The notes under the pieces were generated by a model. That model had not been told where the DNA came from, did no database searches, and was given only the letters and a program-made list of their open reading frames with translations. The position numbers and the translations under genes were made by a program. Below, one piece after another: positions 11,135-30,054 of a stretch of 30,147 bases of DNA. The DNA comes from a virus. The stretch's first letter is position 1. Each line of letters begins with the position of its first letter. Where the stretch lies: IMG/VR virus record IMGVR_UViG_3300042090_002940, positions 1 through 30,147 of that record, one strand, 5' to 3'.

Positions 11135-11740
11135 ATGTGCGGGACCATCTGTCGGGTGCTGCCGGATCGATGGGGTAGATCGGGCGGCGTTTCGGTTTCA
11201 TTCCCCGGAGCCTGTCATGCGATCGTTGCGGCAGTCGCTGCCGCCGGCTTAGCAGCCGGTACGGCCGATGCGGCGGCGCCGTTTGCCGATGCCGGAGGGG
11301 TGCCCGGGCTGCCCGGCTGGCCGCAGGATTTTGCGCTTCGCCTGGCGTTGTACTTGACTATTTCGCTCACTCTGGCGGCGCTGATCTCTCGGGCAATCCT
11401 CTACGGTATACGGCTTTATACGAAGGTTTCGGATCGATATGTCATGCTTGGTCTCGCGCCGATCGTGTTCGGGTTGGCGCTCTTCGGCGTTACGGAGCTT
11501 GCAAACCGCCTTCTGGCTTGGTTGCAATCCGGCCATACCGCGCAAGTTTTGTTGCCGACACTGATTTTTTTGCTCACATGGCCACTTATTGTCGGATTTT
11601 GTTTATTATACGATTTTATGATCGCATGTAGTTTTTTTGCAAGGGCTCCAATTAGTAAATACATTTATATTGTTCTTGGATCAATAGTAATTTTTATCGA
11701 AGTCTTATATTTATTATATGTGACAAATATCGTCGAGTAA
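11135..11740 (+). CDS. AT-rich polytopic membrane protein of unknown function
   Basis: This 201-residue protein has a hydrophobic Ala-rich stretch near residues 25-47 (a possible signal segment) and then about four membrane segments: near residues 68-92, 98-125, 130-160 and 165-195. A strong GAGAGGAG precedes ATG 11135. The 3' half is strikingly AT-rich (16 G or C in 60 at 11641-11700) inside a high-GC cluster, so the gene is probably a recent insertion. It lies between tube and the tape-measure slot, where membrane proteins are not expected. It is not a recognised holin. It ends 56 bases before a gene with a possible peptidoglycan-active domain, which makes an immunity-like or regulatory partner one possible reading. 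Confidence 0.75.
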   Translation: MCGTICRVLPDRWGRSGGVSVSFPGACHAIVAAVAAAGLAAGTADAAAPFADAGGVPGLPGWPQDFALRLALYLTISLTLAALISRAILYGIRLYTKVSDRYVMLGLAPIVFGLALFGVTELANRLLAWLQSGHTAQVLLPTLIFLLTWPLIVGFCLLYDFMIACSFFARAPISKYIYIVLGSIVIFIEVLYLLYVTNIVE

Positions 11741-11796
11741 ACGCGGGTCAATATTGAGAAAACCTAGCGTTTAATCACATAAACGGGAGGCGGAGT

Positions 11797-13971
11797 ATGC
11801 TTGGGAGTTCCACCCTTGCCGTCATGCCTGTCAACCGTAGCATTCAAGCATGGCTCAGTACGCACGCGACTGAAATCGCGGGCATTGCCGATATCCTCGG
11901 CGTGCCCGCGACCTCGATTGCTGCGCCGCTCGTGCAGGAAGCCGGCGGCATCATATTCGACGGCTTCGCGCCATCCGCCCCATTCTTGACCGGGCCGACC
12001 CGGCTCGACGATCCGCTCAGGCTTGACAGTCTCCACGCCTATAAGGAACAGATCTTCGACGAATGGCTGGACGAATGGGTTCAACAGTATAGCCACCAAG
12101 ACATTGCCCAAGACTTTTCCAATAAGTCTTCGGAAATTGCCGGCCGGCCGGGCAGTGTGACGCCGTCGGGTGTCGCCCGGTGGCTCGAGAAAATCACCAG
12201 CCCGACGGCCAACGATCTCGGCTGGGGCAATGTCAATCTCGGCACCGCAATCTCGGAGCTGCAGAACTACTTGCATGACCCGCACTATGCCGGCGATCCG
12301 CTCCATCTGAAGCAATATGAAAGCGACTATCGGGCCTTTGCCCGCGACCTTGTCGACCCTCACGCGGCGGCAAGCTTCGCGATCTCAGGTTTGATCGCGC
12401 GCGAGGGGCAGGACTACTACACCAAGACCTATGGTGAGCAGTACACGACGCTGCCGGACCAAGCCAAGGCGGCGCTGTCGACAACCTACTTCAAGCAAGG
12501 CGACACCAAGATCCGCGAGCATTTCGTGGACCCGATCGCACCGACGGTTCCGGATCCCGCGCGCGGTGATGGCGGGCCCGATATCATGGATAAGGCCAAC
12601 TGGCAGATCCTCCTAAAAAGCCTCGGTATTGCCTCGGAACACGGTCCGCGGCCGCACGCCGATGTCGCTCCGACGGCCTCGGCTGCGCTCGCGGCGAATG
12701 CGTCGGCTCCGATCGCCGACAATTTCCCGCCTGTCCTGGTCGCGCCGCTCACCGCTGTGCCGCCCGCGCCCAAGCGCGTCGAGTTCGACGCCGCAGCCGG
12801 ACCTCAGGAAAGGCGAGAGGGTGATGCTCGCGTCCCGGATGTCGGGGCGACATCTTTCAGTCCGGCGGTTTCCCCGCAGCCGCTTGGTTCCTTGTCGGAT
12901 CTCTATCCACTCGGCGCGGCGCCTGACGATTCCTCGGCATTGAGCATTGCGGGCGCGGGACAAGGGGCTGTGCCCCGCGGTGACGACGACGCAGTCGGAC
13001 CTGGCCTGACAGGCGGCCTGTCCTCGCCGACGCTGCAGATTGCGTTCCCGCAGCGGCCGGTCGGCGACCCGGTCGGGCGCCCCGGCACGACAGGCGCGGA
13101 TCAAAGGGCACCCGAGGCGAAGGCCGAAATCGGTCTGGCGATTCCGCCGCTCGCATCGCGAAAGTCACCGGTACGATCGCCGATGGAGTCCTCGACATCG
13201 GTCCCGCTGCCGCAACTGTCTCTAGGCCCCCCATGGGCTGCGAGACCCGATGGGCCGGCCGGCGCGATATCCGGGTTGCGAAATTCGACGGATTTGAATC
13301 CCGTGACGAAGCCATCCGACGCGGTCGCTCCGCTTCGGCTGCCCGAGCCCGGTAGGCTTGCGGGCGAGGGTGGGCGTCCGCCATGGCCGGCACCGATCGG
13401 CGCGACACTTCTTCCACCCGAAAATTCCAAATATGTACCTGATTCGAGCCTATCGACGGCATCGAGCGCTGTGTCGGCGCCGCCGGGCCTGCCTGGATCG
13501 GGATGGCTAAGCCGTGTCGATCCCTGGTCGCCTGGCTCGATCGATTGGCCGAGGGAGGGTGCGGCCGCGGCCGACCCGGTAGCGACGGCGGTATCGAGGT
13601 CCAGCATGATCACGACCGCGACCGATCCCGGCGGGTTCTCGTCCCACGCCGCACCTGCGCTCTCGATGCCGCCGGCGGAGCGGCGCTTTGGAAATGGCAG
13701 CACCATCCCCCATTCGCCATCTCGCCCCGGTCGGGCGGCCCCGCCGCCGCCCGGGCAGGCGGCCGCGCCGTCATCCGGCGGCGGCGGCGTGCAGGGTGCG
13801 GCTCAGGGCGGTTCCGATCAGACCGAAGTGGAGCTCGATCACCACATGCTCGGCAGTGTCGTCCTGGCAGCACTGGATCGATCGACCGGCGGTCCGAATA
13901 CGGGGCCAGCCTCAGTCAATTCCTCGCAGATCTACACGCCGGCCGGCGTCACCATCAGCGGATACCAATGA
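11797..13971 (+). CDS. 724-residue protein in the tape-measure slot: lysozyme-like N-terminus, disordered C-terminus
   Basis: Residues 1-285 look globular and helical (IAGIADILGVPATSIAAPLV with E48, GNVNLGTAISELQNYLHD near 145-161, GLIAREGQDYYTKTYG near 198-213, ALSTTYFKQG near 227). This set of motifs recalls predicted muralytic domains carried by toxins and tail proteins, but no family is certain. Residues of about 290-660 are Pro/Ala/Gly/Ser-rich and should be disordered, and the end (TEVELDHHMLGSVVLAALDR and IYTPAGVTISGYQ) looks ordered again. Position after the tube and before the hub is that of the tape measure, yet the long helical, coiled-coil character of tape measures is missing. 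GGGAGGCGGAG before ATG 11797 supports the start. It overlaps no neighbour; the next gene begins directly after its stop. Confidence 0.7.
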   Translation: MLGSSTLAVMPVNRSIQAWLSTHATEIAGIADILGVPATSIAAPLVQEAGGIIFDGFAPSAPFLTGPTRLDDPLRLDSLHAYKEQIFDEWLDEWVQQYSHQDIAQDFSNKSSEIAGRPGSVTPSGVARWLEKITSPTANDLGWGNVNLGTAISELQNYLHDPHYAGDPLHLKQYESDYRAFARDLVDPHAAASFAISGLIAREGQDYYTKTYGEQYTTLPDQAKAALSTTYFKQGDTKIREHFVDPIAPTVPDPARGDGGPDIMDKANWQILLKSLGIASEHGPRPHADVAPTASAALAANASAPIADNFPPVLVAPLTAVPPAPKRVEFDAAAGPQERREGDARVPDVGATSFSPAVSPQPLGSLSDLYPLGAAPDDSSALSIAGAGQGAVPRGDDDAVGPGLTGGLSSPTLQIAFPQRPVGDPVGRPGTTGADQRAPEAKAEIGLAIPPLASRKSPVRSPMESSTSVPLPQLSLGPPWAARPDGPAGAISGLRNSTDLNPVTKPSDAVAPLRLPEPGRLAGEGGRPPWPAPIGATLLPPENSKYVPDSSLSTASSAVSAPPGLPGSGWLSRVDPWSPGSIDWPREGAAAADPVATAVSRSSMITTATDPGGFSSHAAPALSMPPAERRFGNGSTIPHSPSRPGRAAPPPPGQAAAPSSGGGGVQGAAQGGSDQTEVELDHHMLGSVVLAALDRSTGGPNTGPASVNSSQIYTPAGVTISGYQ

Positions 13972-17554: not shown

Positions 17555-18697
17555 ATGGCGATCATCGGTCAGAGCTTCAAACAATTCGTCACCGGCATGG
17601 TCGCAGGCGCGAAGGCCGCCGCGACGGTGACGCTCGACTTCACCAGCGGGTCGATCAACCTCGCCCTGATCCAATCGGTCGCCGCCGTGGCGCTGTGGCT
17701 CGAAGGACTCGTCCTGCAGGTCCTGGCGCAGTCGCGAGCGGCGACGAGCCAGGGCGCCGATCTCGACAGTTGGATGGCGGATTTCGGCTTCGCCCGGCTC
17801 GCGGCCGTGCCGGCGGCCGGCCAAGTCACGTTCTCGCGGTTCCAGCCGACCGCCGCGGCCGTCGTTCCGGTGGGATCGAGCGTCGCGACCGCGGTCGGCG
17901 GCGCGCAATTCACCGTCACGGCGGATCCGACCAATGCGGCCTTCGGCGCCAATGCCGCCGGCAGCGGGTTGCCCGGCTATACCATCGCGCCGGGCGTGTC
18001 GGCGCTGACCGTTCCTGCCGCGGCTGCCGTACCCGGCAGCGCCGGGAACATCCTGGCCGGGGCGATCGCCGTGCTGCTCCAGCCGATCGGCGGCATCGAC
18101 ACGGTGACGAATGCATCGGCATTCGTCGGCGGGAGCGATCCGGAAGGCGACGGCGCCTTCCGCACGCGGTTTCAGAGCTTCATCGGCGCCTTGCAGAAAG
18201 GCACGGACGCGGCGATCGCCTTTGCCGTGAACGCGCTGCCGCAAACCGGCCTGACCTTTCAGATCCTCGAATCGACCAACCCGGCGCTGGCGGTGCAGAA
18301 CGGCTATGTGACCGTCTGCCTCGACGACGGGTCGGGCGATCCACCGGCCTCGCTGCTCCAGGCGGCGATCGCGGCGATCGAGGCCGTGCGCTGCGCCGGC
18401 ATCACGGTCGGCGTCATTCCGCCGACCATCCTGCGCGCCAATGTGGCGATGACCTTGACGAGCATCGTCCAGGCCAACCACGCCGCCGATGTCGCGGCGG
18501 TGACGAACGCCCTTACGGCCTATCTCAACGCCGTGCCGGTGGGCGCGCCGCTGCCGTTCTCCCGATTGACGCAGATTGCCTATGACGCGTCGGCGAACAT
18601 CTCCAATGTGACCGGGGTCACGCTCAATGCCGGCACCGCCGATCTGGCCGTCACGACGGTGCAGGTCGTCAAGGCCGGCACTTTGGCGGTGGCGTGA
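17555..18697 (+). CDS. Baseplate J protein (P2 gpJ-like)
   Basis: This 380-residue protein resembles gpJ/gp6 baseplate wedge proteins. Features include SQGADLDSWMADFGFARLAA with GQVTFSRFQPTAA, the typical LDSWMADFGF..RLAA.PA.GQVTF start of the beta domain; VPGSAGNILAGAIAVL; GGSDPEGDGAFRTRFQSFIG; and a C-terminal AYLNAVPVGAPLPFSRLTQI with ISNVTGVTLN. ATG 17555 is preferred to ATG 17537 because GGGGA lies six bases upstream. It forms the ring that opens during contraction. The 92 bases before it hold no gene. Confidence 0.88.
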   Translation: MAIIGQSFKQFVTGMVAGAKAAATVTLDFTSGSINLALIQSVAAVALWLEGLVLQVLAQSRAATSQGADLDSWMADFGFARLAAVPAAGQVTFSRFQPTAAAVVPVGSSVATAVGGAQFTVTADPTNAAFGANAAGSGLPGYTIAPGVSALTVPAAAAVPGSAGNILAGAIAVLLQPIGGIDTVTNASAFVGGSDPEGDGAFRTRFQSFIGALQKGTDAAIAFAVNALPQTGLTFQILESTNPALAVQNGYVTVCLDDGSGDPPASLLQAAIAAIEAVRCAGITVGVIPPTILRANVAMTLTSIVQANHAADVAAVTNALTAYLNAVPVGAPLPFSRLTQIAYDASANISNVTGVTLNAGTADLAVTTVQVVKAGTLAVA

Positions 18698-19427: not shown

Positions 19428-21524
19428 ATGGACAGACAACAAGTCTATGCGCTCGCGATTCCCTACGAAACCGATTTTCTGGCCGCGCAGCGCTTTACCC
19501 AGGAAGGCCTCGGCCTGCTCGCTCAAGACCTGCTGGGCTTGGGGCCGATCGCCGCGGGTCTGGCCTGTACCCCGACATCGCCGGCTTCGCTCGCCGTCGT
19601 GGTCGGGCCGGGCCGCCTCTACCAGCAGAGCTTTCTCGACGCCTCGGCCTATGGCCAGATCGCGAACGGCAACCCGGCCGGCGGCCTGTCGGCCGACACC
19701 AACCCCAATCATCAGGTCCTGAAGCAGGGGCTGCTGCGCGACCCGGTGACCCTGTCCTGCCCGGCGCCGCAGACCAGCGGCGCCACCGTCAGCTATCTGA
19801 TCGAGGCGCAGTTCCAGGAAACCGATACGGGCGCTTCGGTGCTGCAATTCTTCAACACGCAAAACCCGTCGACGCCGCTGGCCGGACCGCCGAACAGCCC
19901 CGGCGCCACCCTGCCGACCGTCCGGTCCTGCGCCTGCGTGCTTCAGGTCAAGGCCGGCACGCCGGTGACCTCGGGTACGCCGATGGTGCCGATCGCCGAT
20001 GCCGGCTGGGTCGGGCTCTATGTCGTGACCGTCGCCAATGGCCAGGCGGCGATCACCGCCGGCAATATCTCGGTGCTGTCCGGCGCGCCGTTCCTGACCC
20101 AGACCTTGCCGCAGCTCGGCAGCGCACCCGGCAGCTACGCCGTCGATGTCGGCACCACGGCCAACACGATCACGGCCAATCCCGTGCCGGCGATGACGGG
20201 ATATGCCGTGGGCGCGGTCCTGCGCATCCTGCCGGCGAATGCCTCGACCGGACCGGTGACCGCCAATGTCAACGGGTTGGGCGCGGTCAGCGTCACGCGG
20301 CCGGACGGCACTCCCTGCGTCCCGAACGACATCCGGATCGGCAAGGCCTTCGACGTGGTGATCAAGACCGGCCCGGTCATGCAGATGCTGTCCTGGCCGC
20401 AGATGGGCGACGGACCGAAGAACGCCATCGCCGGCGCGGCGCATGCCTTCGCCGTGGCCGACGCCGGCAATGCGACCTGGCGGTCGAATGGCGGTGCCGC
20501 GATGACCGACACGCTGCCGGGCGCCGGCGCCGGCGCGCTGCCGGCCGGCTGGGCCGCGACGATCATCAATGCGGATGCGACCGGGCTGCTGGCGATTCAG
20601 GTCGGCACGGGATCGACGCTCGCCGGGCCCAGCGTGTCGAACGGATATATCGTGCTGGGCCCGGGACAGAAGGTTGCGGTGACATGCGACGGGACGAATT
20701 ATCAGTGCTTCAGCGCGTTTGAACGGGCGAAACTGACGGCGAATACGACGCTGTTCGTGAGCCCGTCGGGGAGTGATACGGGGAATGTGGGGATCGTGTC
20801 GGGGAGTCCGTTTGCCTCCATTGGCCGTGCCTATTCATGGGCTCAGTCGGCGCTTGATCTGAACAGTTTTCAGCTCACTGTCTCAGTAGCTCCAGGCTCT
20901 GGTGGAAGCTATTCGACTACAAATTTATTCACCGGCCCACTGATCGGTCAAATAAATCCAGTCATCATCAATGGATCTGCGACAGTATCGACCATAATAG
21001 GGGGCTCTTCTAATGGAGTTGCGAGTTTTGATGCTAGTGGAGGCGCTGTTGTGCAGGTACAAAATATGTCCTGTGGCCAGACTGGAGCGGCAGGCGTAGG
21101 CCTACTTGCATCTGGTCCTGGGTCGATTATCCATGTTGGCACCGGTATGGCGTTCACGGCATGTGCTCTATACGTGATGGAAGCAACATTCGGCGCTGCT
21201 ATCGCAATAGATCAAAGTTACGCTGCCACGGGAAATGGATCGGCACACTGGAGTGCGTCGTACAACGGTCAAATATTTTGGACAAGCACAACATTGACTG
21301 TAACACTTACGGGAACTCCATCCTATAGTAATGCATTCGCCGTAGCCGTCGGTATGGCAAATATTTCCCCTCTGGTAAATGGGGCGTTACCAGTATTTTC
21401 TGGGGCAGCATCTTCTAGTACAGTTAGGTATTCTATTAGCTCAAACGCAACAATTAACACAAATGGTGCCGGATCGACAGCCCTTCCTGGCGGTTCGACC
21501 GGCACCGGATCGGGGTACTTCTAA
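19428..21524 (+). CDS. Tail fibre / tailspike with beta-helix tip
   Basis: This 698-residue protein is the probable receptor-binding fibre. Residues 1-300 carry attachment-type modules (QQVYALAIPYETDFLAAQRF, then SLAVVVGPGRLYQQSFLDAS). Residues 300-440 are a Gly/Ala-rich beta region. From about residue 442 (LFVSPSGSDTGN, then SPFASIGRAYSWAQSALDLN) the pattern is that of a pectate-lyase-like right-handed beta-helix. The end is Ser/Thr/Gly-rich. Base composition changes at about 20815: 47 of 60 bases are G or C at 20521-20580 but only 24 of 60 at 20941-21000, so the tip has been acquired separately. GAGAGG precedes ATG 19428. The target receptor cannot be read from the sequence. Confidence 0.8.
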   Translation: MDRQQVYALAIPYETDFLAAQRFTQEGLGLLAQDLLGLGPIAAGLACTPTSPASLAVVVGPGRLYQQSFLDASAYGQIANGNPAGGLSADTNPNHQVLKQGLLRDPVTLSCPAPQTSGATVSYLIEAQFQETDTGASVLQFFNTQNPSTPLAGPPNSPGATLPTVRSCACVLQVKAGTPVTSGTPMVPIADAGWVGLYVVTVANGQAAITAGNISVLSGAPFLTQTLPQLGSAPGSYAVDVGTTANTITANPVPAMTGYAVGAVLRILPANASTGPVTANVNGLGAVSVTRPDGTPCVPNDIRIGKAFDVVIKTGPVMQMLSWPQMGDGPKNAIAGAAHAFAVADAGNATWRSNGGAAMTDTLPGAGAGALPAGWAATIINADATGLLAIQVGTGSTLAGPSVSNGYIVLGPGQKVAVTCDGTNYQCFSAFERAKLTANTTLFVSPSGSDTGNVGIVSGSPFASIGRAYSWAQSALDLNSFQLTVSVAPGSGGSYSTTNLFTGPLIGQINPVIINGSATVSTIIGGSSNGVASFDASGGAVVQVQNMSCGQTGAAGVGLLASGPGSIIHVGTGMAFTACALYVMEATFGAAIAIDQSYAATGNGSAHWSASYNGQIFWTSTTLTVTLTGTPSYSNAFAVAVGMANISPLVNGALPVFSGAASSSTVRYSISSNATINTNGAGSTALPGGSTGTGSGYF

Positions 21525-22021
21525 TGCTTTATAATACAGACAATTGGTACTGGGCAGTCGAAGGAAGCGTCGGACATATTTGGTCGAGCGCTCGTCTTGG
21601 CTATGTTGCGACCTCCGATGCGGCTTATGCGACATGGCTTGCCGCCGGCAATACGCCGACAGTTATTCCTAGCACCACCGATCTAGTCGGTGTAATGCAG
21701 CAACAAATTTTGTTGGCTCTTCGAGCGGCGGGGCTGTCTGTGCTGTCGACCGCAGCACCGGCTTTCAACGGAATCTATGCTCTTGACAAGAGTTCCCAGA
21801 CGGATATTGCTGGGATCGCGGCAGGCAAGGGACTTCCGGGTGGCGGCGTGACCTTCAGCTATGCGACATTGAGCGGAACACCCATAGCTTTTAATGCGAT
21901 AGAATTTTCCAACTTTGCATCGGCGGTGGAGGGATACATCTACGCATTTAGCCAAGCGCTTGTGGCGCTCATTGCGGATGCGTCAGCAACGCTGCCATCC
22001 CAGCCTCTGACTATTCCTTAG
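21524..22021 (+). CDS. Tail fibre-associated protein (fibre chaperone-like)
   Basis: This 165-residue protein starts at an ATG that overlaps the fibre stop (TAATG). The N-terminus, WAVEGSVGHIWSSARLGYVA with DAAYATWLAAGNTPTVIPS, is a pattern seen in small proteins after phage fibre genes, including those annotated with DUF4376-type domains, which act as fibre chaperones or as attached subunits. Residues 60-165 are helical with mixed polarity. The gene shares the AT-rich character of the fibre tip, so the tip and this gene were likely acquired together. Confidence 0.75.
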   Translation: MLYNTDNWYWAVEGSVGHIWSSARLGYVATSDAAYATWLAAGNTPTVIPSTTDLVGVMQQQILLALRAAGLSVLSTAAPAFNGIYALDKSSQTDIAGIAAGKGLPGGGVTFSYATLSGTPIAFNAIEFSNFASAVEGYIYAFSQALVALIADASATLPSQPLTIP

Positions 22022-22086
22022 GTCGCCCCACGAACTCTCAATGATAGGGTGCGGGTACGCCAAATATTACAAAATTCATTTGTTGG

Positions 22087-22115
22087 TTGACGAGGGAGGA
22101 AATTTAGTATGTAAA
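22087..22115 (+). promoter_or_regulatory. Possible promoter of the surface-modification genes
   Basis: TTGACG at 22087-22092 has a candidate -10 TATGTA at 22108-22113 (15-base spacing) or TGTAAA (17-base). The surrounding 22060-22120 is AT-rich. An own promoter would fit cargo genes that are expressed in the lysogen, separate from the late tail operon. The 140-base gap holds no other feature. Confidence 0.3.
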
Positions 22116-22163
22116 AACGAGTAGCCGGGCGGCCTCTCGTAACGGCATACCCGGAGTAAACAG

Positions 22164-23549
22164 ATGGCATTCCTCGTCTCGTCGGCATTGTTCGGATACT
22201 TCTGGGTTGTCGGATTCGCTGTTCTTGACCTTCTCTATCGCCGCGACGATCGTGTTCGAACAATGCTGATCGCACCAGCAGCCGGGCTGGTGATTACGCT
22301 CTATGGAAACTATATATTCAGCCGATCCGGGCTGTCGATAGGTGCGATTGCGACGCCATTTGCTATCGTTCTCTTTGTCGCTGCCGTTGGAATCCTGGGC
22401 TGGCGCCGGCCGCTTCTGCCAGGACGCAGCGGCGTGCACTACTTCCTGATCATGGCCGCGTCGCTTGTCGCTTCGGGCTGGCCGCTGTTCGAACTCGGCT
22501 TCGACTGGCTGGCTCATTTCAATCCCGACGCTGGAAACTATATCCTGGATGCGCATCGGCTTTTTCGCCGACCGTTCATCGAGGTTCCGGACGCGGGGGA
22601 ATTTCTCCGACAATCGGATTGGAGCAGTCAGTATATTTATTTTCCAGCTATCGGCGCTCGGGTCGGAACTGACTTGGTGTTTGCTTGGGTTGTCGCGGTA
22701 TCTGGCCTCGATGAGACCTCAGCCTATATGCCGCTACTGGTGGCATTACATGTAGCCGCGACCAGTGCGGCTACGGCGTTAATCGGACCTGCGTATCGAT
22801 CCGCGCGGCTGCTTAGCGGGGCGCTGTTGGCTGTATGCGCACTCTCGAGCGTCGGGGTGGCGCTGCAATTGCTCGGGCAGGAGCAGGGCTTGGCGTGCCT
22901 AATTCTGTCGTGTGTTCTGCTTCTGACCCCGTTCTATCGGCTTTCGCGCGGCTCTCTGGCGCGTCACATATTCCTCTCGGGGTTGGCAGGCGCCGGGTTC
23001 CTCCTCAGCTATCCGGAATTGCTACCCTTTCTCGGCCTCAGCTTCCTCATCTACCATGGAATTGGAATCAAAGAATTTCGTCAGTATTGGCGCTCGGCCT
23101 TGATTGCCTGTGTTGCAGTTGGCGCGTTAGTGAGCGCGCTTGTAGCGCCAGATGTATTGGGTCTCCTGCGATACCTGTTCTCACAAGCGAGTGCGGGCGC
23201 CGCTAGCCAACGGCACCCGGAGCTATTCCCGTACCTTCTGATTCCCAATGGAGTCGCTGCGGTCTGGGGCCTCCGGACCTATGCGCCCGGCGGTCCTTCA
23301 TTGATCGCGCCGAATATTGCCATTGCACTGGGTTTTCTCCTTTCCATTTTTGCCATATTCGGTGCCGGATGGATGACTCTACGGCGTGAAGCCTGTGGCA
23401 CAGTCCTTACTGTGATGGGAATATTGTCTGCCATACTACTATTTGATGAAGCGGGTTTTGGCGTCTTTAAACTCGCCATGTACGCGCAACCCTTCCTCGT
23501 GGGAACTTTCGTGCTGTCACTATGTCGCGTTCTCAAGGTGGCGCGATGA
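22164..23549 (+). CDS. Polytopic membrane protein, possible GT-C-type glycosyltransferase
   Basis: This 461-residue protein has about eleven hydrophobic membrane segments spread over its length. The first large loop contains FDWLAHFNPDAGNYILDAHR, and an Asp at this place is compatible with the acidic residue of GT-C glycosyltransferases, which use lipid-linked sugars on the periplasmic side. Phage-carried proteins of this type (as in O-antigen glucosylation) alter the host surface. No named family is certain. It precedes a membrane-anchored periplasmic protein and overlaps it (ATGA), so the two are one unit. Its lower GC than the tail genes supports cargo status. A flippase or polymerase is the alternative. 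Confidence 0.6.
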   Translation: MAFLVSSALFGYFWVVGFAVLDLLYRRDDRVRTMLIAPAAGLVITLYGNYIFSRSGLSIGAIATPFAIVLFVAAVGILGWRRPLLPGRSGVHYFLIMAASLVASGWPLFELGFDWLAHFNPDAGNYILDAHRLFRRPFIEVPDAGEFLRQSDWSSQYIYFPAIGARVGTDLVFAWVVAVSGLDETSAYMPLLVALHVAATSAATALIGPAYRSARLLSGALLAVCALSSVGVALQLLGQEQGLACLILSCVLLLTPFYRLSRGSLARHIFLSGLAGAGFLLSYPELLPFLGLSFLIYHGIGIKEFRQYWRSALIACVAVGALVSALVAPDVLGLLRYLFSQASAGAASQRHPELFPYLLIPNGVAAVWGLRTYAPGGPSLIAPNIAIALGFLLSIFAIFGAGWMTLRREACGTVLTVMGILSAILLFDEAGFGVFKLAMYAQPFLVGTFVLSLCRVLKVAR

Positions 23550-24961
23550 GCTGGACGTGGCGGTTTGCTATCGCGTTAATTGTTGTCGGGTTATTGGGCT
23601 TTGCAAACCTCTCAACTCAGCGCGCGTATCTATCTGACACGCTACATCAAGGCTGGTCACCGATGCTGGCGCAATTACGGCGCCTGACGAATCTTCCGGC
23701 TGGCATCCCTGTAATGATCGGCTTACAGGACTTTCCAAAGCCCGATCTGGTCGCGCTCTATTCTCTAGGTCATCCGGCTTGGTCGCTTGGCGGGCGGATC
23801 ACGACACCCTCGCAGCCTCTCCCGCCTGGCACGGAAATCGCCGATCTCATCGACAAATTGCTCGCCTCCGGCAAGCCGCTGTCCTTCGAACTGAGCCCCG
23901 GCGGCCTGCGTCACAAGTTCCAGCGCTTCGATCCGCTGAACGGCGGTTCCGTCGCGTCGGCGGTTGTCGTGCTGCCGGCGCGGGACGAGAGCGTCGTGAA
24001 CGCCAGCCAGAGCCGGCCGCAGAGCGGTCACCTATATGCAGCACCCTTGGCCGATCTCCACAACACTCTGGTGCTGATGGATACCGATCTGGCGCACTGG
24101 ATCATACCCGGGGGCCTTGCCGACACGGCGCTGTGGCAATGGGAGGGCGATTTCGCCGGGTCGCCGAACGGGATTCAGGGCGTCGGCCGCCACTTGCTGT
24201 TCGAGGTATTGAATCCGGTCCCCGGCTCGCGCCTGCTGCTCGACTTCACCTCGGGCGGGTTGGCGCAGCAGGGGCTGGCGCTGCCGCCGGCGGCGGCGTT
24301 CGGTACCGAGCGGCTCGATCTCGGGCTGGCCGGCCACGGCGCCGGGCGGGTCTTGTCCGCGCCGATCGAGCCGCGGGAGATCGACGGCCACTACTACCTC
24401 GCCATCGATATGGGCGTCGATGCCGGGCAATTCCTCGGCGAGCGGCAGGGCCTGGCGGCGCTCTACAACACCAATCTGCGCGATGATCCGCGCCGGCTGG
24501 TGGGGTTCGTCCGGAACATTTCCCTGCTGACCCCGGACGAGGCGGCGGCGCTCGATCCGCCCGGCGCGGTGGCGCGGCTGCCGGCCGATCTGATGGCGCC
24601 CGGCCTGCTGTTCAGCGGCATATCGGAGGATGGCTGGCTGGCCGACAAGGCGTGGTTCCGCCTGGGCTTGCCGGGGCCGAGCAACCGGCTGCGCATCGCC
24701 GGTGAGATTCCCGGATTCAGCCCGAAGATTCTCGGCGGCATCGTGCGGCTTTTTGCCGACGGCACCAAGATCGCCGAGGCCAAGCTGATCGCGGGGCAGT
24801 TCGATCTGACCTTTCCAATCCCGGAGGCGTCGGGCCCGCGGATCATCGCCCTCGAATTCAGTGAATTCGACCGCCTGCCGCCGCCCGACGGCCGCGTCGT
24901 GTCGATCCATCTGGAAACGCTTGCGCTCGGCCAAGTGCAGGCCGCGGAGACCGGGCGCTAA
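23546..24961 (+). CDS. Membrane-anchored periplasmic protein with sugar-binding-like C-terminus
   Basis: This 471-residue protein starts at ATG 23546, overlapping the preceding stop, with AAGGTGG upstream; ATG 23522 would add eight residues. Residues 4-27 (WTWRFAIALIVVGLLGFANL) form one membrane anchor, and the remainder should lie in the periplasm. Two beta-domains are visible, around residues 175-270 and about 365-460; the last one (RIAGEIPGFSPKILGGIVRL, FADGTKIAEAKLIAGQFDLT, then GPRIIALEFSEFDRLPPPDG) resembles jelly-roll modules that accompany surface-glycan enzymes. A role with the upstream membrane protein in modifying a lipid-linked sugar is inferred. I see no glycosidase motif. From about 23800 on the GC content rises back to the level of the tail genes. 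Confidence 0.55.
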   Translation: MSWTWRFAIALIVVGLLGFANLSTQRAYLSDTLHQGWSPMLAQLRRLTNLPAGIPVMIGLQDFPKPDLVALYSLGHPAWSLGGRITTPSQPLPPGTEIADLIDKLLASGKPLSFELSPGGLRHKFQRFDPLNGGSVASAVVVLPARDESVVNASQSRPQSGHLYAAPLADLHNTLVLMDTDLAHWIIPGGLADTALWQWEGDFAGSPNGIQGVGRHLLFEVLNPVPGSRLLLDFTSGGLAQQGLALPPAAAFGTERLDLGLAGHGAGRVLSAPIEPREIDGHYYLAIDMGVDAGQFLGERQGLAALYNTNLRDDPRRLVGFVRNISLLTPDEAAALDPPGAVARLPADLMAPGLLFSGISEDGWLADKAWFRLGLPGPSNRLRIAGEIPGFSPKILGGIVRLFADGTKIAEAKLIAGQFDLTFPIPEASGPRIIALEFSEFDRLPPPDGRVVSIHLETLALGQVQAAETGR

Positions 24962-25058
24962 GGCGCACCGGCCGCGCCGCCGCCCGGCGATCGCCGCCTG
25001 ACCGATTGACCAGGAACGAGATCCGGCGCCCGGGCGTCCGCGTCCGCGCGCCCGCTGC

Positions 25059-25098
25059 GGCATCTCGGCCCCGGCATCTCGGCCCCGGCATCTCGACC
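25059..25098. repeat. 14-bp tandem repeat before the endolysin
   Basis: GGCATCTCGGCCCC occurs at 25059-25072 and 25073-25086 exactly, followed by a partial third copy GGCATCTCGACC to 25098. The repeat lies in the 161-base gap in front of the endolysin and ends 24 bases before its start, so copy number could influence leader length or structure. It may also be plain replication slippage. Confidence 0.8.
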
Positions 25099-25122
25099 AT
25101 TGCCGTGCTCAGGAGAAATCTC

Positions 25123-25869
25123 ATGTCCGCCATCACACCCGCGCTCCGGGCGGCGATCCTGGCTGCGCTGTTCCATCATGAATGCGGCGGCCGAGACGAT
25201 GTCGCCTATCGGCTTTCCTTCGCGAGACTCGGCAAGAGCGGCGGATCCTTCGGTAAATTGCAGGCGGATTGCCATGCTGACCCTATTGCCCGGACGGTGA
25301 TCGGACAGATCCTGCGCGGCGCCGGCATGCCGGCCGATCGGGCCAGGCGAATCCTCGAAATTCTCGTCGCGGCGCTGCCGCGCGGGTGGCCCGGGGCGGC
25401 TGCGGATCTGGCCGCGATCAACGCCGCGATTGCGGCACCGGCCGGGCGAAAATCGGTCGATGCGCTCGACCAGACGATCCTCACCGGGCTGGTCGCGGAT
25501 CTCGAGCACTGTGCGGCGGCCGCGGCCCGGCGCGGCGCGACGGTCGAACCGGCGGCGCTGATCGCCATGGCGCTGTGGATCAATCAATTCGGCCGGCCGA
25601 CCGAGCTCCTGCGCTGGCTCGGCGGCGGCGCCGTCACGCTGGGCGGCCGCGAGATTGCGCCGCCGCCGGGGGCTGCGGTGACCGAGGCGCAGTTCATTTC
25701 CGGCTATGTCGCGTTCGTCCCGTTCGAAACGGCGCATCCCGGCCAGATCGCCGCGCTGCGCGACGCCGTCGCCGTCGGTGTCGCGGCGCTGTCGACATCG
25801 CCGCGGCTGCGGACGGCGCCTCCGGCGGCATCGGCCGAAATCTCGAATCAGGTCGGAGGAACACAATGA
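25123..25869 (+). CDS. Endolysin-like protein (putative peptidoglycan hydrolase)
   Basis: This 248-residue protein carries the pattern HHECGGRDD (E20, D25, D26) followed by GKSGGSFGKLQAD (residues 37-49), as in lysozyme-like enzymes where a Glu at the end of the first helix starts cleavage of the glycan and a nearby acidic residue assists. A helical domain follows, with MALWINQFGRPTELLRWLGG near residues 148-165. It has no signal peptide, so it would need a holin to cross the inner membrane. AGGAGA lies before ATG 25123. The small membrane protein and lipoprotein behind it make a lysis cassette. Family is inferred from motif and context. Confidence 0.6.
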   Translation: MSAITPALRAAILAALFHHECGGRDDVAYRLSFARLGKSGGSFGKLQADCHADPIARTVIGQILRGAGMPADRARRILEILVAALPRGWPGAAADLAAINAAIAAPAGRKSVDALDQTILTGLVADLEHCAAAAARRGATVEPAALIAMALWINQFGRPTELLRWLGGGAVTLGGREIAPPPGAAVTEAQFISGYVAFVPFETAHPGQIAALRDAVAVGVAALSTSPRLRTAPPAASAEISNQVGGTQ

Positions 25870-26042
25870 TGGAAAGAATCCTGCTGCTGAAATTTCTCGC
25901 CGGCGGCGTGCTGTTCGGCATGCTGTTCGCGCTCGTCATCCTGGACAAGATGCCTGCGGCGAGTTTCGAGGCCTTGGCGATCGGCGCGTTGGGCGCGATC
26001 GGCGGCCATGTCACGGCCCGGCTCGGCGCCGGCCAATCCTGA
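25866..26042 (+). CDS. Holin-like small membrane protein
   Basis: This 58-residue protein has one clear membrane segment near residues 7-26 (LLKFLAGGVLFGMLFALVIL) and a second, weaker one at about 33-51 (SFEALAIGALGAIGGHV), with a short polar C-terminus. Size, position after the endolysin and the overlap of its ATG with the preceding stop (ATGA) suit a holin that forms inner-membrane lesions to release the endolysin. GGAGGA at 25855-25860 supports the start; ATG 25869 is an alternative. Holins are too diverse to assign a class. Confidence 0.6.
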   Translation: MMERILLLKFLAGGVLFGMLFALVILDKMPAASFEALAIGALGAIGGHVTARLGAGQS

Positions 26043-26082
26043 CCCATCGCGGCCGATCGGCGCATCGGCCCCCTCATTTTCC

Positions 26083-26116
26083 GTTTCGGAGATAATGCAG
26101 TTTCGGAGACTATGAA
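26083..26116 (+). repeat. Duplicated binding site with a six-codon mini-ORF
   Basis: GTTTCGGAGA occurs at 26083-26092 and again at 26100-26109, each followed by a start codon at the same distance. The first ATG (26095) opens a mini-ORF of six codons (MQFRRL) that ends in TGA overlapping the ATG of the lipoprotein gene at 26112. A coupled leader peptide or a 17-bp tandem duplication both fit. Confidence 0.55.
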
Positions 26117-26483
26117 CATGACCCGACATCCGGGCGCGCTCGCGCTCGTCCTCGCCGCCCTCGCGCTGGCCGGCTGCGGTATCACCCCGGCCAATCCGTT
26201 CACGGAATTCGCCCCGCTCACGACCAAGATCGCGGCCTTTACCGCTGCCGACGTCCAGACCGCGCTCGACGACGCCAACAAGAACGACGACGTCGTCGGC
26301 GCGCTGTGCTGGGGCACGGTACAAAAGGCGCTGCCGGCGCTGCAGCCGCCAAAGGCGGCGGGCGGCGCCACCGCGATTCAGCTCGGCCGCGATGTTCAGC
26401 GAAAGCTGCCCGACATCGCCGATGCCTGCGCCAACATCCTGCCGACCGGCCTGGTCTCGCTTGCCGGGCTGGTCGGCGGGTAA
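26112..26483 (+). CDS. Lipoprotein of the lysis cassette
   Basis: This 123-residue protein begins with a lipoprotein signal: basic N-terminus, a hydrophobic LALVLAALALAGC core and a lipobox LAGC with Cys at residue 22. After cleavage the acylated protein would sit in the outer or inner membrane on the periplasmic side. The mature part is helical with few motifs (AADVQTALDDANKNDDVVGA) and has two or more Cys. A spanin-like function in lysis is tempting because of the neighbours, but it lacks the coiled coil of o-spanins and the C-terminal membrane segment of u-spanins. Confidence 0.65.
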   Translation: MNMTRHPGALALVLAALALAGCGITPANPFTEFAPLTTKIAAFTAADVQTALDDANKNDDVVGALCWGTVQKALPALQPPKAAGGATAIQLGRDVQRKLPDIADACANILPTGLVSLAGLVGG

Positions 26484-26565
26484 TTCCCGGCGCGGCTTTC
26501 CCGGTGAATTCGGCCATGCCGTTCCAGACACAGAACCATTTTCTCCAGACTGTGGAGGTCGGGCG

Positions 26566-27498
26566 ATGACGACGGTGTTGTTCGCAACGAACAGGCTTGC
26601 CGATTCCTCCGTCCCGGGCGGCTTCGGCGCGCTCATGGCGCAGGAAGGGCCGGCCAACATCACCTACGGCACCGCCGCGGTCGAGAACGGCCGGCTCGCC
26701 GCGGTAGCCGATATTCAGCCGGGCCATTGGCCGGACGCGACCCTGGGGATGATTGCCCGATCGCCGGTGTCGCTGGTCACGGTGCACGGCTTCGATTACA
26801 GCTTCGAGGACTCCCTGATCCGCGCCGCGTCGCTCGGCGATCTGTACGGCGTCAAGACCGTGATCGCGCCGTGCTGGCCGTCGGCGGGCAGATTGATCGA
26901 ATTCGGCCTGCCCGATGACGCCTATCTGCACGACCAGAAGATGGCGGCAGCCTCGGGACCGGCGATCGCCCATATGCTGACGACGCTGGCGCTGATCCGC
27001 GGCTATCAGGCGCCGGGCGCGCGCATGACCGGGCTGTTTCACTCGATGGGCAGTTTCGTCCTGGGCGGGGCGCTCGACGCGCTGGATGCGTTCGGCATGC
27101 CGCCGGCCCCGCTGTTCGACGACGCGCTCCTGGCCGCTGCCGACGAGCGCGCAGACAGCTTCGATCTCGCGGACCATGCGCGTCTCGGCCGGTTGTCGCG
27201 GGTTGCCGTTCGGCAAACCCTTTATTTTGCGCAGGACGACGAGGTGCTCGCTCTGTCGGCGGCGATCAACGGCGCGGCACGGCTGGGGCAAGACGGGCCG
27301 ATCGATCGTCAAAATGCAGATTTGTTCCCGCCGGAAATCTTCCGGTTCGTCGATTGCACGGCGAGTGATCCGGTCGACCTCGACCCGGATGACAGTCACC
27401 AATATTACCGGAATTCACCGGTTGTCGTCGCGGATATCGCCGCGGTCGTCACGGGCAGGGCCGCGGCGGCAACGAGCGCCGAAAGATCTGCCGCGTAA
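26566..27498 (+). CDS. Alpha/beta-hydrolase fold protein (DUF900-like)
   Basis: This 310-residue protein opens with LFATNRLADS, followed by VSLVTVHGFDYSFEDSLIRA, a strand-plus-oxyanion region typical of this family, and the nucleophile elbow GLFHSMGSFVL with Ser160 in H-S-M-G. An acidic residue near 225 (FAQDDEV) and a His near 278 (DDSHQYY) could complete the Ser-Asp-His triad. No signal peptide is visible, so it acts in the cytoplasm or after lysis. GGAGGTCGGGCG before ATG 26566 supports the start. It closes the lysis region before the strong terminator. A lipase or esterase role is inferred from the fold; the substrate is unknown. Confidence 0.7.
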   Translation: MTTVLFATNRLADSSVPGGFGALMAQEGPANITYGTAAVENGRLAAVADIQPGHWPDATLGMIARSPVSLVTVHGFDYSFEDSLIRAASLGDLYGVKTVIAPCWPSAGRLIEFGLPDDAYLHDQKMAAASGPAIAHMLTTLALIRGYQAPGARMTGLFHSMGSFVLGGALDALDAFGMPPAPLFDDALLAAADERADSFDLADHARLGRLSRVAVRQTLYFAQDDEVLALSAAINGAARLGQDGPIDRQNADLFPPEIFRFVDCTASDPVDLDPDDSHQYYRNSPVVVADIAAVVTGRAAAATSAERSAA

Positions 27499-27588
27499 TG
27501 CCGCCCGGCGCCTGAAGTCCTTGCCGCGACTGCTGGCGGAATCCGTCCGGTCGTCATCCGCCCCGGCATGTACTGCACTCGTCGTTAC

Positions 27589-27634
27589 GCCCGCGCCGGC
27601 CCCAAAAGGGGCCGGCGCGGGCTTTTTTTTGTTT
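27589..27634 (+). terminator. Strong intrinsic terminator closing the phage block
   Basis: A perfect 15-bp stem (GCCCGCGCCGGCCCC / GGGGCCGGCGCGGGC) with loop AAAA is followed by eight T residues and a further TTTT. It lies 90 bases after the last phage-side gene and is the clearest terminator in the window. It separates the phage operon from the chemotaxis gene. Confidence 0.95.
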
Positions 27635-27829
27635 TGGCCATGCGGGCCGGGGGGTCGCTCGGCACGGCGGCCGGGCAGCCGGCGCGGCACAGCCGCGGTT
27701 GCCGCGAACGAATTTGGCGTTTAGAGTTGTGCCGGTTGGGAATATCGTTGGTGGCGTCCGAACTCGGCCGCAGTGCGGTCCCGCGGCTCGGGACTGATCG
27801 CTCCGCTAGCCAATAAAGGCGATTCGACA
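27635..27829. other. Gap between terminator and chemotaxis gene
   Basis: No gene is seen. This gap, together with 27499-27588, is where the right prophage boundary would be expected, because the genes before the terminator are phage-like and the genes after it are chromosomal. I see no tRNA gene and no direct repeat that would mark an att site, and no convincing promoter for the chemotaxis gene. Confidence 0.5.
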
Positions 27830-29518
27830 GTGCAGCTCAAAGATCTAAGTATCTTGGCGAAGATCGCGATTCCGGCGAGCGTTCTGGCGCTCGTTTCGGT
27901 CCTGATCGCGGTGTACGCGACGCTGTCGGTGGAGCATTTCGCGATGACGGTCGCCAGCCAGGATCGAATCGCGGCGAGCCTGAAATTCGCCTTGGAGGCG
28001 CAAAGCGCGTTCAACAGCGTCGCGGTCAGCGAAAAGAATGTCATCCTGACCGGCACCGAAGCGAGCGTCGCAAAGGGGCACATCGCCCTCTATGACCAGG
28101 CTGTCGAGGCGACCCTGCAGGCGCTCGACCAGCTTTCGTCGGTCGTCGACACGCAAGAGCGGCGCGACTTGATCGAGACCACCCGCGAAAATGTGCGAAA
28201 GCGTCGGGAGGTCAGCCAGTCGGTCTTTGCTCTGGCCGGCCAGGGCAAGACCGCCGAGGCTTTCGCGATGTCGAGCGTCGAAGCGGCAAAGTATCGCAAG
28301 GCGGCCAGCGAAGCCGTGAATGCGCTGGTCAAACTCAATGACGGCGATCTGCAAAGGATCGGCCGCACGGCCGAGGCGCAGACGGTTCGCAACCGCATCA
28401 TCTTGTGGGCCGGATCGGCCGGCGGACTCATCATCGCCTTCGCCGTGACCGGCTGGATCGTCATCACCCAGATCGTGCGGCCGGTGCGCGGCATTACGGG
28501 GCAGATGGAGCGGCTGGCGGCGGGCGATCTTGCCGGCGAGGTGCCGGATGCGGGGCGGCGCGACGAGGTCGGCGCCCTGGCCCGTTCGTTGCAGGTTTTC
28601 AAGCGCAATGCGGTCGAGCGGCGCGATTTGGAGGTGGCGCAACGCGAGGAGCAGGGCCGCAAGGAGGCGCAGCAGCAGGCCGTTGCGGGTTCCATCGCGT
28701 CTTTCGATGGCGCCGCGCGGCAGGCGCTGCAAGCACTCGACGGCGCCGCTGCGGAGATGCGCAGCACAGCCGAAGAGTTGAGCGCAACGGCAGGCCAGAC
28801 ATCGACACAGGCCGTCGCCGTCGCCGCCGCGTCGGGGCAGGCGGCGGCGAATGTCCAGACCGTTGCCGCCGCGACGGCCGAGTTGGCCGCTTCCATCGGG
28901 GAGATCAGCCGGCAGGTCAGCCAATGCGCGACGATCGCCGGCGATGCGGTCAGAGAGGCCGACCAGGCCGGCGGGACGGTTCAGAGCCTCGACGTGGCGG
29001 CAACACGCATCGGCGAGGTTGTCGGGTTGATCAAGACGATCGCCGCCCAGACCAATCTGCTCGCGCTCAATGCCACGATCGAGGCAGCGCGGGCCGGCGA
29101 ACACGGCAAGGGCTTCGCGGTCGTTGCCAACGAAGTCAAGGCGTTGGCCAATCAGACGGCGCGCGCGACCGGCGAGATCGAGGCTCAGGTGGCGGCGATT
29201 CAGCAGGCGACCGGCGCGGCGACCGGTGCGATCCGGGGGATCGGCGGCACGATCTCCGAAATCAGCCAGATCACGACCACGATCGCCTCGGCTGTCGAGC
29301 AGCAGGGGGCGGCAACCCGCGAGATCGCCCGCAGCGTCGACGACGCGGCGCGCGGCACCGGCGAAGTCTCGCTCAATATCGCCGGGGTCACCGGCGCTGC
29401 GCAGCATTCCGGCGAAATGTCCGCGCGCGTGCTGTCGTCGGCCGCCGGGGTTACGCGCCAGGCTGAGCGGCTGCGCGCCGAGGTCGACAGCTTTCTCGGC
29501 CGGATCCGGAACAACTGA
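27830..29518 (+). CDS. Methyl-accepting chemotaxis protein
   Basis: This 562-residue protein is a membrane chemoreceptor. Membrane segment 1 lies at about residues 10-33, then a helical periplasmic sensor region of about 155 residues (a four-helix-bundle type by its length and charge), segment 2 at about 190-213, a HAMP region ([20 protein letters not shown]) and the cytoplasmic signalling domain. The conserved hairpin tip, [20 protein letters not shown] with [20 protein letters not shown], lies near residues 400-435 and binds CheA and CheW. I chose GTG 27830, which gives [14 protein letters not shown] as in related receptors; a GTG at 27773 would add a non-conserved leader. It is a chromosomal gene, not a phage gene, by context. 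Ligand is unknown. Confidence 0.9.
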
Positions 29519-29579
29519 ACGGCGTGTGTGCGGTAGAACGCCGTGGTGCCGGACCGGCGGACGGGGTACGATACCGGCT

Positions 29580-29999
29580 ATGATCGCCATCATCCCCGGT
29601 CTCGCGATCGGCGAGGACGAAATCGATGAAAGCTTCGTCCGTGCCTCCGGGCCCGGTGGGCAGAACGTCAACAAGGTGTCGACGGCGGTTGAACTGCGCT
29701 TCGACGTCCGCCGTTCGCCCTCGCTCCCGGAATATGTCCGTGCCAAGCTCGCGACCCTGGCCGGCCGCCGGTTGAACGGTGACGGCGTGCTGGTCATCCA
29801 GGCCCAGCAATTTCGCTCTCAGGAGCGCAACCGCCAGGACGCGCTCGACCGGCTGGTGGCGTTGATCCGGGCCGCTGCGCACCGCGAGGCGCCGCGCCGG
29901 CCGACGCGCCCGACTCTGGGTTCCAAACGGCGCCGGCTCGAGGCCAAGAGCCAGCGTGGCGCGCTGAAGCGGCTGCGCAGTACCGGCCCGGACGACTGA
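29580..29999 (+). CDS. arfB: Peptide chain release factor homologue ArfB
   Basis: This 139-residue protein rescues ribosomes stalled on mRNAs without a stop codon, by hydrolysing the peptidyl-tRNA. It has the catalytic GGQ motif at residues 26-28 in SGPGGQNVNKVSTAVELRF, a context shared by ArfB/YaeJ and release factors, and a basic C-terminal tail (KRRRLEAKSQRGALKRLR) that enters the empty mRNA channel. It lacks the codon-recognition domains of RF1/RF2, as expected from its short length. It stands 61 bases after the chemoreceptor stop and is a normal chromosomal gene. Confidence 0.95.
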   Translation: MIAIIPGLAIGEDEIDESFVRASGPGGQNVNKVSTAVELRFDVRRSPSLPEYVRAKLATLAGRRLNGDGVLVIQAQQFRSQERNRQDALDRLVALIRAAAHREAPRRPTRPTLGSKRRRLEAKSQRGALKRLRSTGPDD

Positions 30000-30054
30000 A
30001 CGCCGCACGATATCGTGCCGACCGAGGCTGGCCGGCATGGCGGGCTTGCTCTAA

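Follow-up and report, generated by a model that had tools for sequence, protein, structure and literature searches.

The window, the whole stretch of DNA that was analysed, comprises 30,147 nucleotides of an IMG/VR virus record and covers the greater part of the structural region from a phage with a contractile tail; the portal, major head protein, tail sheath and baseplate proteins were recognised in it. The tail sheath matched 80 viral loci, the closest at 74 % (L002/G001), and also 18 loci in Acetobacteraceae or Rhodospirillales genomes such as Acidocella, Acidisoma and Acetobacter. These genomic matches suggest that the host probably belongs to the Acetobacteraceae-type or Rhodospirillales group, and the element is a prophage related to Acetobacteraceae phages. 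By eye, the first 400 nt resemble what is left of an IS4-like transposase, and none of the genes was recognised as a terminase; the prophage record therefore looks truncated at its left end. At the right end, positions 26392–30038 encode a DUF900 alpha/beta hydrolase, a methyl-accepting chemotaxis protein and an RF-1-domain (ArfB-like) protein, and this part is probably host chromosome past the prophage. A second low-GC patch (0.48–0.52) was observed at 11135–12000 near a possible tape-measure gene, and the ORF at 11135–11740 within it had no PHROG family match.

The genes of interest, here called P1 and P2, lie downstream of the tail fibre genes among the following features.

19428–21524, + strand: tail fibre, with a conserved N-terminal domain common to relatives and an exchanged distal tip
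20769–23789, + strand: block of foreign codon usage, delimited by change points in the codon log-ratio, comprising the fibre tip, the fibre-assembly gene, P1 and the first ~81 aa of P2
21524–22021, + strand: fibre-assembly-like protein (DUF4376-related), with a weak DUF4376 match below the cut-off
22022–22163, + strand: intergenic region before P1, with no consensus promoter and an RNA hairpin that encloses the P1 start
22164–23549, + strand: P1, polytopic membrane protein of 461 aa, from its intact ORF, topology analysis and match to a fused homolog
23546–24961, + strand: P2, predicted membrane-anchored periplasmic protein of 471 aa, from an ATGA overlap, an upstream AAGGTGG and a match to the same fused homolog
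25123–25869, + strand: putative lysis gene, by position only

An earlier note on this DNA had described two overlapping genes, the first encoding a polytopic protein with an acidic loop and the second a membrane-anchored periplasmic protein, and this description was borne out. Both ORFs were intact. Hydropathy at a loose threshold gave 12–15 transmembrane (TM) segments for P1, and the loop formed by residues 111–161, placed between TM4 and TM5, was acidic (7 D/E, 4 K/R) and predicted to be periplasmic by the positive-inside rule. The ORF of P2 was first listed as 23522–24961; an internal ATG at 23546 overlaps the P1 stop by 4 nt (ATGA) and has AAGGTGG just upstream, so this is the likely start, and P2 translation is likely coupled to that of P1. 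The predicted topology of P2 was one N-terminal TM helix followed by about 445 hydrophilic residues on the periplasmic side, arranged as a central domain and one C-terminal module (PGLxxSGIxEDGW ... RLPxxDGRxVSxxL). A perfect 14-bp tandem repeat in 2.7 copies, CGGCATCTCGGCCC, follows P2 at 25058–25095, ahead of the next gene.

The pair had also been credited with a possible promoter of its own, which was not recovered. The scan covered sigma-70-type sites, so that a promoter of another type would be missed, and found no site on the + strand at 21400–26200; the total number of sites found (1) corresponded to the shuffle mean of 1.1. A TTGACG near 22085 is separated from TATGTA by a spacer of only 15 nt. 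In the predicted hairpin at 22085–22185 the upstream region pairs with the first P1 codons, enclosing the start codon (z=−2.05; 9 of 200 shuffles folded equally well).

The context of the pair was determined by comparison with related phages. Relatives matched at most residues 1–252 of the tail fibre, and the tip was 42 % identical to that of the phage at L131 and ~31 % to that of Acidovorax phage AP1. The fibre-assembly protein had 41 % identity to its counterpart in L131 and 30 % to a gene of L082 that does pass the DUF4376 cut-off. In L082, the closest phage relative, a short gene with a predicted membrane product comes after the DUF4376 fibre-assembly gene and precedes a GH108 lysozyme; P1/P2 are missing there, in agreement with the view of the pair as cargo. 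A D12 DNA adenine methyltransferase (L131:9399–10220) occupies the position of P1/P2 in L131, and phage AP1 has a small gene, a holin and a lysozyme after its fibre-assembly gene. What follows the fibre-assembly gene therefore differs between these phages. The pair had been placed between fibre and lysis genes, and the upstream half of this placement holds, with the fibre and DUF4376-like genes in position; the downstream gene at 25123–25869 is a lysis gene by position alone, having no NCBIfam or PHROG match and, in a longer reading of the same frame, no Pfam match.

The profile search of both proteins that had been proposed recognised no family. P1 and P2 had no Pfam match even at E=10 and no PHROG or NCBIfam match above chance. 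GT-C and CBM profiles likewise gave no match to P1, P2 or the fused homolog even at E=10; Wzy family profiles and PADLOC defence models did not match P1 or P2, and PDB sequences gave no match of note. Single-sequence AlphaFold models reached pLDDT 42 for P1 and 38 for P2, too poor for fold comparison, because no alignment was available for folding. Searches for relatives drew on samples of genomes and viral records and are incomplete in that sense. No P1/P2 relatives were found in the sampled viral contigs, plasmids and phage genomes (pattern scans, with tblastn in plasmids and phages), no P1 relative in a pattern scan of genome contigs, and no P1 in 19 related phage records. Searches with P1 and P2 in 398 Acetobacteraceae-family genomes and with P2 in 385 genomes of the class gave chance matches only. 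Weak genome matches at E of about 0.001–0.01 were rejected as chance, the frames being antisense to or unrelated to real genes. A module perhaps resembling the P2 C-terminal module was seen in a two-domain glycosyltransferase of the Acetobacteraceae family (L117:1501–1770), at a profile-comparison probability of only 17 %.

A search with P2 of 399 genomes of the phylum gave one strong match (E=3e-40), in another Pseudomonadota genome (G832, contig C26). The matching ORF (L127:10334–13507) encodes a protein of 1057 aa with 12 predicted TM segments. Residues 1–453 of this protein align with P1 except its end (28 % identity over 450 aa, E=2e-37) and residues 556–912 align with P2 (30 % identity over 369 aa, E=6e-42). 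P1 was absent from the query yet matched the same ORF in the right order, and the match therefore constitutes independent confirmation. Residues in the loop region of P1 that are common to the homolog were N120 (of an N120-x-D122 motif), D122, Y126, E140, D152 and R166. The P2 alignment begins at residue 124 of the long P2 ORF, and the first ~115 residues of P2 could not be aligned with the homolog beyond the position of the hydrophobic segment. Residues 912–1057 of the homolog repeat the P2 C-terminal module, giving two copies against one in P2. A profile search of 227 Acetobacteraceae-family genomes and of the class to which G832 belongs yielded no additional homolog. Since the homolog is colinear with P1 followed by P2, the alignment indicates that P1 and P2 are two halves of one protein, split into two genes. 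The break is placed in a loop that joins the last two helices and is predicted to be cytoplasmic. We favour a true two-gene form over a single gene broken by a frameshift because of the ATGA overlap, the ribosome-binding site and this position of the break; the pair comes from one record only, and a sequencing error keeps a small probability. The fused homolog led us to abandon the idea of P2 as a periplasmic partner protein in its own right, and with it the suggestion that P2 is an unfamiliar partner in serotype conversion, since it corresponds to the C-terminal half of one protein. The sugar-binding-like beta modules assigned to P2 were not confirmed; a C-terminal module does recur, but no fold could be identified from the pLDDT 38 model.

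The neighbours of the fused homolog were GT2 enzymes, a GtrB/ArnC-type undecaprenyl-phosphate sugar transferase (a GT2 with E=1e-56 to sll0501 structures), WbqC, a DegT aminotransferase, an MBOAT acyltransferase, a carbamoyltransferase and a hexapeptide transferase. Judged by this gene content, the locus is a surface-polysaccharide cluster, and the surface-glycan role of P1/P2 is therefore supported, indirectly. The earlier note would have taken kinship with a chromosomal pathway that has no bearing on surface glycans as a refutation of surface modification; the sole real homolog found, lying near a GtrB/ArnC-type enzyme, points the other way, and it is the two-partner arrangement that has been replaced. 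A lysogenic conversion gene (moron) would be cargo that related phages lack at that site, driven by its own promoter and expressed in the lysogen; P1/P2 would be a candidate by their absence from the closest relative and their foreign codon usage, and no promoter was found.

Synonymous codon usage was scored against the resident structural genes. The score changed from +0.43 to −0.58 at about 20769, inside the fibre gene (T=13.3, p about 2e-4), and from −0.38 to +0.36 at about 23789, inside P2 (T=6.3, p about 2e-4), so that both breaks fall within genes and not between them. Beyond its first ~81 residues P2 has resident-like codon usage. Most resident genes had no codon break; the two exceptions, the portal and a baseplate gene, shift only near their annotated starts and are probably wrong start calls, codon usage at 928–1153 for the portal ORF and at 18627–18696 for the baseplate ORF suggesting that the starts were called too far upstream. 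One reading of the block is an exchange between two phages that both carried P1/P2 at this position, another is two separate acquisitions, and composition by itself cannot decide between them. The block suggests that the receptor-binding tip and the glycan enzyme were exchanged together. A more specific proposal, tentative and in our view rather doubtful, is that the fibre tip, assembly protein and membrane half (P1) are transferred from phage to phage as a single cassette whose breakpoints lie within the fibre gene and within P2, so that a phage swapping its tip would also gain the enzyme for the matching receptor glycan, with the resident acceptor-binding half (P2) retained; splitting of the ancestral fused enzyme would permit such swapping. 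If tip and enzyme travel together, a change of host range and the masking of a receptor would be linked in one recombination event.

We consider it on balance somewhat probable that P1 and P2 together make up one envelope enzyme, each supplying half, which modifies a host surface glycan as a GT-C-like transferase with an acceptor-binding half. P1 would be a GT-C-like membrane glycosyltransferase whose polyprenyl-phosphate sugar donor is made by the host and used on the periplasmic face, with catalysis through the acidic loop between TM4 and TM5 and D122 or D152 as candidate catalytic residue. The N-terminal helix, at the position of the last helix of the fused homolog, would hold P2 beside P1, and the periplasmic modules of P2 would bind the acceptor polysaccharide, as do the carbohydrate-binding modules of EmbC and GT136 enzymes. 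The resulting change in the glycan may remove or mask the receptor of the carrier phage or of competing phages. The donor would have to come from the host, since none of the genes in the window was recognised as GtrA/GtrB-like. The transferase chemistry, donor, acceptor, receptor change and timing of expression are what we infer from these comparisons. The TM counts of the fused homolog (12) and P1 (12–15 by hydropathy) are in keeping with the 7–13 helices of GT-C enzymes, and the homolog lies within a surface-polysaccharide locus. In known GT-C enzymes the acidic loop usually follows TM1. Its position after TM4 in P1 and the absence of a match to GT-C profiles are real weaknesses of the GT-C model; the single homolog, the unrecovered promoter and the need for a host donor count against the model too. 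The GT-C-like label given to the loop was not confirmed, because of the position after TM4.

The same observations can be read without GT-C chemistry, with P1/P2 acting on a surface polysaccharide as an O-antigen polymerase (Wzy-like), a ligase or another glycan-processing membrane enzyme. The polytopic form with a long periplasmic loop, the homolog in a polysaccharide locus and the lack of a GT-C family match would all suit this, and there is a precedent in Pseudomonas phage D3, which reportedly acquired an O-antigen polymerase. There was no match to a Wzy family either, and a periplasmic C-terminal half of ~500 residues fits a GT-C enzyme with a carbohydrate-binding module better than a typical Wzy; we regard this reading as unlikely. 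Still less probable is that the pair is a passenger: part of a bacterial glycan locus that recombination brought along and that has lost its function, or is no longer under selection, in the phage. Sporadic distribution with a single distant homolog is what a passenger would show, and the transposase-like fragment and truncated left end mark the record as incomplete. Against this, the two ORFs are undamaged and meet in an orderly ATGA junction, and P2 stays in frame and homologous on the longer side despite the codon break, which suggests exchange between functional copies.

A further possibility concerns timing and is compatible with the proposed enzyme activity. The pair may be expressed with the late operon and mask receptors, so that progeny avoid re-adsorbing to debris or infected siblings. 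P1 and P2 are oriented like the late genes, no promoter of their own was found and P2 is likely coupled to P1 in translation, all of which accord with a late-lytic function. On the other side, foreign codon usage and a closest relative that lacks the pair are what independently acquired cargo typically shows, and a sigma-70-type scan would not reveal other promoter types. We give late-lytic expression an appreciable chance while thinking it the less probable case.

Enteric gtr operons are the best-known case of receptor modification encoded by phages. If the preferred reading, a split glycan-modifying transferase, is true, P1/P2 would represent a different, unnamed enzyme family, split in two genes, with a comparable function in bacteria of the acidophilic or acetic-acid type. 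A family of chromosomal proteins that stands unannotated in polysaccharide loci would also gain a functional context.

Among known systems, the O-antigen polymerase (Wzy-beta) of phage D3 resembles P1 in being a polytopic phage protein; it is a single protein altering the O-antigen and has no sequence match to P1/P2, and it is not known to have a large periplasmic partner domain. The gtrABC operons of P22, SfV, SfII and others are, like P1/P2, phage-carried, with a polytopic enzyme and probable surface-glycan modification, and in P22 such phage-encoded modification alters phage susceptibility (PMC3688519). These operons have three genes, for a GtrA flippase, a GtrB undecaprenyl-phosphate glucosyltransferase and a serotype-specific GtrC, whereas the window has two genes, with no gtrA flippase or gtrB synthase recognised, no Gtr family match and a second periplasmic protein instead; the GtrB/ArnC homolog sits near the fused homolog in G832 and not beside the phage genes. 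EmbC and the founder of GT136 are GT-C enzymes with periplasmic carbohydrate-binding domains, the latter modifying the finished O-polysaccharide (PMC3044687, PMC11127046). EmbA/B/C, AftD and Citrobacter ORF12 (GT136) share with P1/P2 a polytopic part with a periplasmic loop and a C-terminal extracytoplasmic domain; they differ in that there is no detectable sequence similarity and in that P1/P2 are split, with the acidic loop of P1 after TM4. The fused homolog itself is encoded in a low-GC bacterial locus (39 % G+C) with no prophage sign in the 19 kb read, and is one chain with two C-terminal modules where P1/P2 are two chains. It is alike in being colinear with the whole of P1 and the greater part of P2, in the acidic-loop residues and in the EDGW ... 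DGR module.
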